Of a DNA stretch of 40,299 nucleotides, positions 21,299 to 24,704 are shown piece after piece. The DNA is from Acidobacteriaceae bacterium. GTDB lineage: Bacteria > Acidobacteriota > Terriglobia > Terriglobales > Acidobacteriaceae. The position numbers and the translations under genes are program-made. How positions within the stretch are numbered: position 1 is the first letter of the stretch; each line of letters begins with the position of its first letter. The DNA is taken from NCBI GenBank assembly GCA_003164855.1, contig PLUI01000066.1:13534-53832 (forward strand), written 5' to 3'. Below the pieces are notes generated by a model. That model saw nothing but the letters and a program-made list of their open reading frames with translations, had not been told where the DNA came from and made no database searches.

Positions 21299-21390
21299 CG
21301 ACCTAACCGACCGGTCGTTCCAACTACGCTTTCGTGCCTTGCCCGCCGACGCGCGCTTCCCTATCATCACAAAAGCACACTGGGGTCCGT

Positions 21391-23187
21391 ATGGAGAAAA
21401 AGAAGTCTAAGCCGCAAGTGGCTGAAAGTCCTGTCGCTGACGTTTTCGAGAACCGGCATCCCTCCGCCGCGGAAAAGAACTGGGCTGAGAAAACCCTTGC
21501 GCCCACCCTCGAAAAGGCTCCCGAGCACGCGATAGGTTCGCCCGCTGGAATAAACGTAGACGAGCACGGCCACGCCCGCTTCACAACAATTTCCGGGGTG
21601 CCCATCCGCCGTCTTTATACTCTGGCCGATCTCCCGGAAGACTGGAGCGAGGAAAAATATCTCGGTTATCCCGGCCAAGCGCCCTACACGCGCGGCATCC
21701 ATGCCACGGGGTATCGCGGCAAATTGTTCACCATGCGGCAATTCTCCGGCTTCGCGTCCCCGGAGGAAACCAACCAACGCTATAAATATCTGCTGGAGCA
21801 CGGCGGCGGCGGGCTTTCCGTGGCATTCGATCTACCCACACTGATGGGCTACGACTCCGATCATCCGGCAAGCGAGGGTGAAGTTGGCAAGTGCGGCGTC
21901 GCCATCGATTCGCTCGAAGACATGGAAATTCTTTTTGGCGGCATCGATCTGGAAAAGACCACCGTGTCGATGACCATCAATTCGCCCGCATCCGTGTTAT
22001 GGGCAATGTATCTGGTGGTAGCCGAGAAACAAGGCGCGGACTGGAAAAAGATTTCGGGCACGATTCAAAACGACATTCTGAAGGAGTACATCGCGCAGAA
22101 GGAATATATTTATCCGCCGGCTCCATCGATGCGGCTGGTCATCGACACCTTCGAGTTCGGATCGAAGTTCACACCGCGCTTCAACACAATTTCCATCAGC
22201 GGATACCACATTCGCGAAGCCGGTTCCACCGCTCTGCAAGAACTGGCGTTCACCCTGTATGACGGCGTGGAGTACGTGGAGTGGGCACGGCGGCGCGGGC
22301 TTGATGTGGACGATTTCGGTCCACGTCTCAGTTTTTTCTTCAACGCGCACAACGACTTCTTCGAAGAGATTGCTAAATATCGAGCCGCCCGCAAGATTTG
22401 GGCTCAGGTAATGAAAGAGCGGTTCGGCGCAAAGAACGCACGCACCTGGCTGATGCGATTCCACACCCAGACGGCGGGAGTTTCGCTGCCCGCGCAGCAG
22501 CCTATGAACAACATTGCGCGGGTAGCGTTGCAGGCTTTGGCTGCAGTGTTAGGAGGCACTCAATCGCTGCACTGCGACTCCTATGATGAAGCGCTGGCCC
22601 TGCCCACCGAGGAGGCGGCGCGGATCGCCTTGCGCACGCAGCAGATCATTGCCTATGAATCGGGCGTGACCCATACGGTTGATCCGTTGGGCGGGTCATA
22701 TTTCCTGGAAGCCTTGACGCTGGAAATGGAAAAGGGTGCGTTCGATTACTTCGGGAAGCTGGATGCGATGGGTGGCATGGTGAAAGCCATTGAGCGCGGC
22801 TATCCGCAGAAAGAAATTGCTGAGGCCTCCTACCAGTACCAGCGAGCGGCTGAGGCCAAAGAGAAAGTCATTGTCGGCGTGAACGAGTTCGTGGTGGAAG
22901 AGGAATCCCCGCACATCCTCTACATCGGCGAAGGCGTAGCGCGGCAACAGTCGGCCAAGCTAAAGGCGCTTCGGGCCCGGCGATCGAATGACGGAGTGCG
23001 ACACGCTCTCGACGCGCTGAAGAAAGCCGCGGCGCAGGATCCGAAGCTGGGCGCCAATGCAGCCATTTCTCCCGCCAATACCATGCCTTATATCGTAGAC
23101 GCTGTGCGCGCCTACGCCACTGTCGGTGAAATTTCCGAGGCTCTGCGAGAGGTGTATGGGACCTATACGGAAGTGAGCATTACGTAG
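21391..23187 (+). CDS. B12-dependent acyl-CoA mutase large (catalytic) subunit; methylmalonyl-CoA mutase superfamily with isobutyryl-CoA-mutase-like signature
   Basis: [92 protein letters not shown]; no B12-binding domain at the C-terminus. Confidence 0.93.
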
Positions 23188-23326: not shown

Positions 23327-23345
23327 GAGGTCACACAGTGACCTC
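23327..23345. promoter_or_regulatory. Palindrome GAGGTCAC-ACA-GTGACCTC over the ORF6N start codon
   Basis: Perfect 8-bp arms; contains the annotated GTG start and lies directly before the alternative ATG (23347). Confidence 0.55.
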
Positions 23346-23922
23346 CATGAAAAAAAGAATAAGTGCAACGCTCCTCAAGATGCCGAAACGTCGTTTGACG
23401 CCAACTCTTGCCGTGGAATCGCGGGTCCTTATCCTCCGCCATCAGAGGGTGATTCTCGACGTCGATCTTGCTCAACTTTATGCCGTGCCAGTCAAGCGGC
23501 TCAATGAGCAAGTAAGACGTAACCAGGAGCGGTTTCCTGCGGACTTCATGTTTCAGCTGAATTCGAAAGAGCACGAAGCTTTGAGGTCGCAAATTGCGAC
23601 CTCAAAGAAGGGCCGCGGCGGTCGCCGATATACGCCGTTTGCGTTCACCGAACACGGTGCGATCATGGCTGCAACGGTGCTCAATTCCGAGCGCGCCGTT
23701 GCGATGAGCGTTTTTGTCGTGCGCGCGTTCGTGCGTTTGCGGGAGATGCTGGCCACCAACCGCCGCCTCGCGGGAAAGATCGATGAACTGGAGAACCGGT
23801 TGGACACCCACGATTCCACGATCCAGGATTTGATTGAAGCGATCAAGGAACTAATGACGCCCGAGGATCCGCCGCGCAAGCGCATTGGATTCCAGCTTCC
23901 GGCAGGAAGGTCGCGAGCGTAA
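23338..23922 (+). CDS. ORF6N-domain (KilA-N-type) DNA-binding protein
   Basis: VESRVLILRHQRVILDVDLAQLYAVPVKRLNEQVRRNQERFPADFMFQL ... LRSQIATSKKGRGGRRYTPFAFTEHG, typical ORF6N. ATG at 23347 is an alternative start. Confidence 0.9.
   Translation: MTSMKKRISATLLKMPKRRLTPTLAVESRVLILRHQRVILDVDLAQLYAVPVKRLNEQVRRNQERFPADFMFQLNSKEHEALRSQIATSKKGRGGRRYTPFAFTEHGAIMAATVLNSERAVAMSVFVVRAFVRLREMLATNRRLAGKIDELENRLDTHDSTIQDLIEAIKELMTPEDPPRKRIGFQLPAGRSRA
23579..23607. repeat. 29-nt palindrome inside ORF6N CDS: CTTTGAGGTCGCAA-A-TTGCGACCTCAAAG
   Basis: 14-bp perfect arms around one central base. Confidence 0.9.
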
Positions 23923-24047: not shown

Positions 24048-24704
24048 ATGAGGAAAGCTGTCAGCCATCTCAAGAAATCGGACCCGGTGATGCGAACCAT
24101 CATCGAGCGCATTGGGCCGTGCCGCATGCAGTTTGGACCGCCCGAGTTTCACAGCCTGGCAGAAGCCATCGTCTATCAACAACTGAACGGCAAAGCCGCG
24201 GAAACAATCTTCCAGCGTTTTGCCGCTCTGGCCGGCGAGCCGCTTACCCCAGAAGGCATCCTAAAACTGAGCGATGAGCAGATGCGCAGCGCGGGATTGT
24301 CGAAGCAGAAGTCGGCGTATTTAAAAGACCTTGCGGCAAAAACCGCCGCCGGTTTACTGGATTTTCCGCGGCTGTCGAGCTTGCCGGACGCAGAGGTGAT
24401 TGAGCATCTGACCCAGGTCAAAGGTATTGGCCTGTGGACGGCCCAGATGTTTCTGATGTTCTCGCTGAAGCGCGAGAACGTGCTGCCCACAGGCGACTTC
24501 GGCGTGCGCATGGCAATGTACAGGCACTATCTCGATGTGCAGCGGGCAAGAGCGGCGAAAAAAACTGCGGCTAAGAATGCACGCAAGCGGAAGATTAAGC
24601 TACCCACTCCGGGACAGATGGAGAAAATCGCGAAGTGCTGGGAGCCTTACCGCAGCGTGGCATGCTGGTACTTGTGGCAGAGCATCGACACAAAAACGCT
24701 TTGA
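24048..24704 (+). CDS. DNA-3-methyladenine glycosylase-like HhH-GPD protein (AlkA type)
   Basis: FHSLAEAIVYQQLNGKAAETIFQRF, LTQVKGIGLWTAQMFLMFSL, VLPTGDFGVRMA; basic insertion AAKKTAAKNARKRKIKL. Confidence 0.88.
   Translation: MRKAVSHLKKSDPVMRTIIERIGPCRMQFGPPEFHSLAEAIVYQQLNGKAAETIFQRFAALAGEPLTPEGILKLSDEQMRSAGLSKQKSAYLKDLAAKTAAGLLDFPRLSSLPDAEVIEHLTQVKGIGLWTAQMFLMFSLKRENVLPTGDFGVRMAMYRHYLDVQRARAAKKTAAKNARKRKIKLPTPGQMEKIAKCWEPYRSVACWYLWQSIDTKTL

Follow-up and report, generated by a model that had tools for sequence, protein, structure and literature searches.

The lac operator O2 is an intragenic auxiliary operator, but the gene that contains it is lacZ, a target gene, and not the gene of the repressor. 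We know of no conservation of lac O2 across phyla in two reading frames. The palindrome analysed here also lies inside a coding region, but it sits in the gene of its own proposed reader, an ORF6N-domain protein. Autoregulatory operators of the XRE-family type (PMC12565409) share with it a homodimer-type palindrome that is limited to the regulator's own locus; in the ORF6N genes, however, the conserved copy is inside the sequence coding for the DNA-binding domain, and an upstream copy is present in a minority. The coding palindromes of nematomorph mitochondria (PMC6649704) are likewise inverted repeats in protein genes that shape the peptide, but they have no protein reader, occupy many positions and show no residue-base coupling. 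The Rickettsia palindromic elements (reviewed in PMC10969869) also occur within protein genes, but are dispersed and mobile, whereas the ORF6N palindrome belongs to one gene family and one position. The open-literature papers searched on ORF6N, KilA-N and intragenic operators describe neither a DNA target of ORF6N nor an intragenic self-operator of this family.

The window, that is, the whole 40.3-kb stretch of DNA analysed, contains a perfect palindrome with the arms CTTTGAGGTCGCAA-A-TTGCGACCTCAAAG (23579-23592 and 23594-23607, 100% complementary). The original prediction of a 14-bp perfect inverted repeat with a 1-nt centre was exact in sequence and coordinates, and its reading of the encoded peptide as LRSQIATSK of an ORF6N gene was confirmed at codons 79-87. 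The palindrome spans codons 78-87, numbered from the ATG (M1 = 23347; a GTG at 23338 is an alternative start), and L79-R-S-Q-I-A-T-S-K87 directly precedes GRGGRRYTPFAFTEHG. No other palindrome in the window has perfect arms of 11 bp or longer, the expectation by first-order Markov simulation being 0.085 per window, and synonymous resampling of the palindrome's codons gave the full set of 14 pairs in 2 of 200,000 draws. Pairs were numbered from a 3-nt centre outwards, as TTGAGGTCGCA (d11 to d1) - AAT - TGCGACCTCAA. The features are as follows:

23327..23345, no strand: start-codon palindrome GAGGTCACACAGTGACCTC, short-spaced and related to the homologues' upstream copies
23347..23922, plus strand: ORF6N-domain gene, 191 aa (Pfam PF10543)
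23494..23496, plus strand: K50 codon, coupled to palindrome pair d6
23497..23499, plus strand: R51 codon, coupled to d3/d4
23506..23508, plus strand: E54 codon, coupled to d3/d4
23579..23607, no strand: intragenic palindrome, 14-bp perfect arms, 1-nt centre
23581..23591, plus strand: left half-site TTGAGGTCGCA, pairs d11 to d1
23592..23594, no strand: variable 3-nt centre AAT; pairing at the innermost position is at chance level
23595..23605, minus strand: right half-site, which is TTGAGGTCGCA on the minus strand

Among the ORF6N, KilA-N and Rha phage regulator domains, the window protein belongs clearly to ORF6N (PF10543, E 1.1e-30, 106.2 bits against a gathering score of 27.8), with a weak match to PF09669. 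In an AlphaFold2 model (mean pLDDT 76; 57 for the block 81-90), the palindrome-encoded segment forms the end of helix 73-82 and a low-confidence loop, 83-97. Residues 50, 51 and 54 share one predicted helix (49-58), and their codons lie about 75-100 bp upstream of the palindrome. For an ORF6N structure, a PDB sequence search returned no match and a fold search no significant match. The neighbours are a mutase-like gene, named methylmalonyl-CoA mutase from its sequence (21334-23187), and a DNA glycosylase-like gene (24048-24704). The mutase-like gene adjoins ORF6N in at least 11 relatives, and its protein is 84-94% identical among the close relatives with an ORF6N gene behind it.

Homologous loci came from two sources, a genome-wide search and 396 genomes of the phylum, and 189 distinct ORF6N genes of bacteria, plasmids and viral contigs were compared. 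Conservation of the palindrome, covariation of its arms, independence of the reading frame and residue-base coupling were computed directly. When the site was located by the protein motif, 119 of 123 genes formed 9 or more of the 11 pairs. Arm pairing of 10/11 or 11/11 anywhere in the domain was present in 159 of the 189 genes, compared with 3.2% of codon-shuffled versions, in agreement with the dual constraint originally proposed; the outcome named there as its refutation, homologues no more palindromic than codon-shuffled controls, was tested and the opposite was found. The arms covary. Pair d3 was G.C in 71 genes, A.T in 66 and C.G in 13; it was complementary in 151 of 155 genes, where column composition predicts 64.5; pair d12 was T.A in 79 and C.G in 57, with 143 paired against 67.9 expected. 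The covarying changes often altered amino acids in both arms at once (S..A, S..V, F..G, R..G), and paired codon changes for L/S were also seen (TTG..TCA against TTA..TTA). That the amino acids of both arms shift together indicates that the DNA drives the peptide. Distant members use a second frame at the identical protein position (EVVTNCDHL, ELVANCDRF, ELVENFDRF and VEVANCDLN, against LRSQIATS), with the DNA core of the palindrome unchanged between the two frames. Peptide conservation alone is ruled out by the codon shuffling, the two frames and the amino-acid-changing covariation.

A few ORF6N relatives with no clear palindrome were also found (L208, L212, L214, L231). At six loci (L090, L094, L100, L103, L106, L107), a degenerate second ORF6N-like gene lies downstream, with the palindrome segment entirely missing. 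Conversely, in a viral gene that is non-ORF6N by profile (L178, L182, L185), the peptide KSQFATSK is encoded by this same palindrome.

When protein columns were scanned against palindrome pairs, residue 54 emerged as the one position outside the loop that fully separates the palindrome classes. At d3, E54 was accompanied by G.C in 66 of 68 genes, Q54 by A.T in 74 of 82, and R/K54 by C.G in 10 of 11. The exceptions were resolved when residue 51 was added: the left bases (d4, d3) were CG with R51 and E54 (68/68), CA with non-R51 and Q54 (73/74), TG with R51 and Q54 (6/7), TC with K54 (3/3) and GC with R54 (7/8). K50 was accompanied by G at d6 in 99 of 100 genes, and other residues at 50 mostly by A. 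Contacts of Gln with A, Glu with C and Arg/Lys with G are the usual ones in major-groove recognition. The K50, R51 and E54 of the window gene agree with TTGAGGTCGCA, which carries the predicted G at both d3 (23589) and d6 (23586). For genes of the second frame (frame B), the rule was right in 13 of 13 and 7 of 8 cases; the 13 include L037 and L055, for which the upstream copy was picked, and L120, for which an inserted second copy was picked. Among syntenic orthologues behind the mutase-like gene, residue and site switch together: the site is GAGATCACA in R50/Q54 genes (L002-L004), GAGGTTGCA in K50/R51/Q54 genes (L005, L012) and GAGGTCGCA in K50/R51/E54 genes (the window, L006, L008, L009, L025).

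The held-out set in which the code was examined comprised 79 genes; their sources were viral contigs, plasmids and a further class of the same phylum. The training palindromes had been filtered for CA or TG beside the centre, whereas the held-out ones were chosen by pairing only. Of 73 held-out genes, the residue-54 rule predicted 69 correctly, and permutation gave a mean of 31.3 and a maximum of 45; K50 was found with G at d6 in 28 of 29. Among the 147 columns outside the loop, excess information on d3 was highest for residues 54, 51 and 55 (.709,.636 and.321), followed by.155 for the next column, with a median of.02; for d6, residue 50 ranked on top (.417; next.113). The near-zero column median argues against hitchhiking of linked residues, an explanation further disfavoured as the columns between the helix (residue 55) and the palindrome loop did not rank prominently. 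A tree was built from which the loop and residues 50, 51, 54 and 55 had been left out; it showed 22 E/Q changes at residue 54 and 21 changes at d3. Supported independent pairs changed in the same direction in about 6 of 7 cases for residue 54 and d3, and in about 9 of 12 for residue 50, with none in the opposite direction for either. With just 7 qualifying pairs, the sign test on supported branches gives a modest result for residue 54 (median p 0.03).

On the strength of this coevolution, the 25-29 bp palindrome is very probably the DNA target of the ORF6N protein from the same gene, a member of a widespread bacterial family, and so an intragenic self-operator; of the functions originally put forward for it, the operator is the one supported. 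The degenerate 25-mer has one exact match in its own genome (5.2 Mb, assembly 87.5% complete), the next-best sites having 3 mismatches, and this single, locus-restricted site fits a locus-restricted reader. Recognition by the gene's own product is suggested by the residue-base coupling; physical binding, dimerisation, and the sign and mechanism of regulation are inferred. Each subunit of a symmetric dimer would read its own half-site through a single helix, whose residues 50, 51 and 54 would contact base pairs 6 and 3/4. The DNA site would overlie a flexible loop of the DNA-binding domain, which would leave the peptide free to change or to switch frame without loss of the palindrome. The palindrome most likely serves negative autoregulation, a proposal less firm than the binding; it is put forward because the site is within the regulator's own gene, with copies at start codons, and because it tracks the gene over phyla, plasmids and phages and would be usable only by a reader that travels with it. 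Bound protein may block or loop the transcription of the gene that encodes it, in some cases jointly with a second palindrome copy over the start codon, and the feedback would move with the gene, whichever promoter it acquired.

Upstream copies were analysed in 181 genes. Some upstream palindrome (at least 9 of 11 pairs) was present in 59, a loose cut-off that admits chance hits; as just these 59 have one, the internal copy does not simply accompany a standard operator at the promoter. Consensus-like upstream copies were found in 44 genes; often they lie 1-5 or 13-20 nt ahead of a start codon that is in frame. They followed the residue-50 code (p = 0.008) and showed a trend for the residue-54 code (Fisher p = 0.11), relatedness being uncontrolled in both. 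Often they were of another specificity class, and some genes had two that differed in class. This mixture may reflect cross-regulation among adjacent ORF6N genes. Two or three adjacent ORF6N genes of different specificity classes were observed at L073, L059, L030 and L323. The idea that upstream and internal copies simply evolve in concert was considered and rejected (similarity 17.1 of 22, against 15.8 permuted, relatedness not controlled). In the window, GAGGTC/GACCTC half-sites were said to be shared with a palindrome over the start codon; the sharing is real, but the spacing there is 7 bp and not 9, and the innermost pair is lacking. The start-codon palindrome is a non-canonical or decayed version and not the same site as the intragenic palindrome.

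It is possible, but unlikely, that binding of the palindrome by the ORF6N protein serves something else than autoregulation, such as marking its own gene for recombination or replication, or cross-talk with regulators of phages or plasmids. The frequent difference in specificity class of the upstream copies would suit such a role, as would the integrases that adjoin ORF6N genes on several plasmids, but the Pfam search of the window protein gave neither a recombinase nor a nuclease domain, and the Terriglobales relatives keep the gene stably behind one housekeeping gene. Nothing was found in support of a recombination site, which was among the functions first suggested. On the Treponema plasmid pTS1 (L209), an ORF6N gene lies between a DNA methyltransferase gene and a restriction subunit S gene.

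An RNA hairpin in the mRNA, with an 11-14 bp stem and a 3-nt loop acting in translational control, pausing or processing, was also among the functions first suggested and is very unlikely. The arms would make a perfect stem, and the position of upstream copies, frequently 1-5 or 13-20 nt ahead of a start codon, would suit one; however, G.U, which RNA tolerates, was not favoured over A.C. Mismatches in the upstream non-coding copies were A.C in 16 cases and G.T in 14, and those in the internal copies A.C in 35 and G.T in 15. With no G.U preference, the constraint looks like that on double-stranded DNA, and the pair covariation together with the lack of a G.T excess over A.C is that of a symmetric duplex-DNA site. 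A hairpin would also leave unexplained why residues 50, 51 and 54 predict bases, unless the protein binds RNA, and no Rfam family matched in the window.

It is more improbable still that replicational template switching homogenises the arms (quasipalindrome correction) with no selection on the DNA. Such homogenisation of coding sequence has been described in yeast (PMC8604942) and E. coli (PMC7202029), and template switching may supply the paired mutations. In an ORF6N fragment (L177, 3380-3404 and flanks), the arms reach 26 bp with 2 mismatches in a template-switching-like manner, and tandem palindromes are present: a second or third one lies inside the same loop at L045, L030, L250 (= L120) and L125, with the extra copy at L250 shifting the frame and breaking the gene. 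The process does not, however, explain the recurrence of the same half-site across phyla in two frames, and is hard to reconcile with bases that are predicted by amino acids encoded 75 bp away.

The exact degenerate pattern occurred 39 times in the 396 genomes (reversed control 0), about 12 of the 39 outside intact ORF6N genes. Stand-alone copies, mostly intergenic (L122, L123, L137, L138, L141, L261, L262, L263, L264), were partly in genomes with no ORF6N match; others (L125, L126, L135) were ORF6N remnants. Palindrome remnants at L135 and L138 lie beside ORFs resembling type I restriction-modification genes. Among viral contigs, 54 were matched, against 5 for a scrambled control palindrome of equal composition, and the first list of matches outside ORF6N mixes genuine copies with chance palindromes. 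Least probable of all is a mobile palindromic element (REP- or RPE-like) residing in ORF6N genes by chance, since, notwithstanding the stand-alone intergenic copies, the tandem copies and the frameshifting one at L250, the position is fixed in nearly all ORF6N genes, several stand-alone copies are remnants of such genes, and the copy number (one exact site in its own genome, a maximum of three per genome among the 396) rules out a dispersed repeat.

The self-operator reading, extended to the family, suggests that ORF6N genes are probably self-contained regulatory units, with an operator inside the DNA-binding domain that reads it and specificity given by a three-residue code (50, 51, 54). For this large protein family, sequence alone would yield both a DNA target and a code linking residues to bases. 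The case would be a clear one of coevolution, within a single ORF, between a regulator and the site it binds, with the DNA dictating amino-acid changes. If this is true, one short stretch must meet the demands of protein fold, DNA recognition and specificity code together, and the specificity of any ORF6N protein would be readable from its own gene through residues 50, 51 and 54. Horizontal transfer could then not separate the gene from its operator, which would explain how a horizontally mobile regulator brings its own feedback into new hosts.
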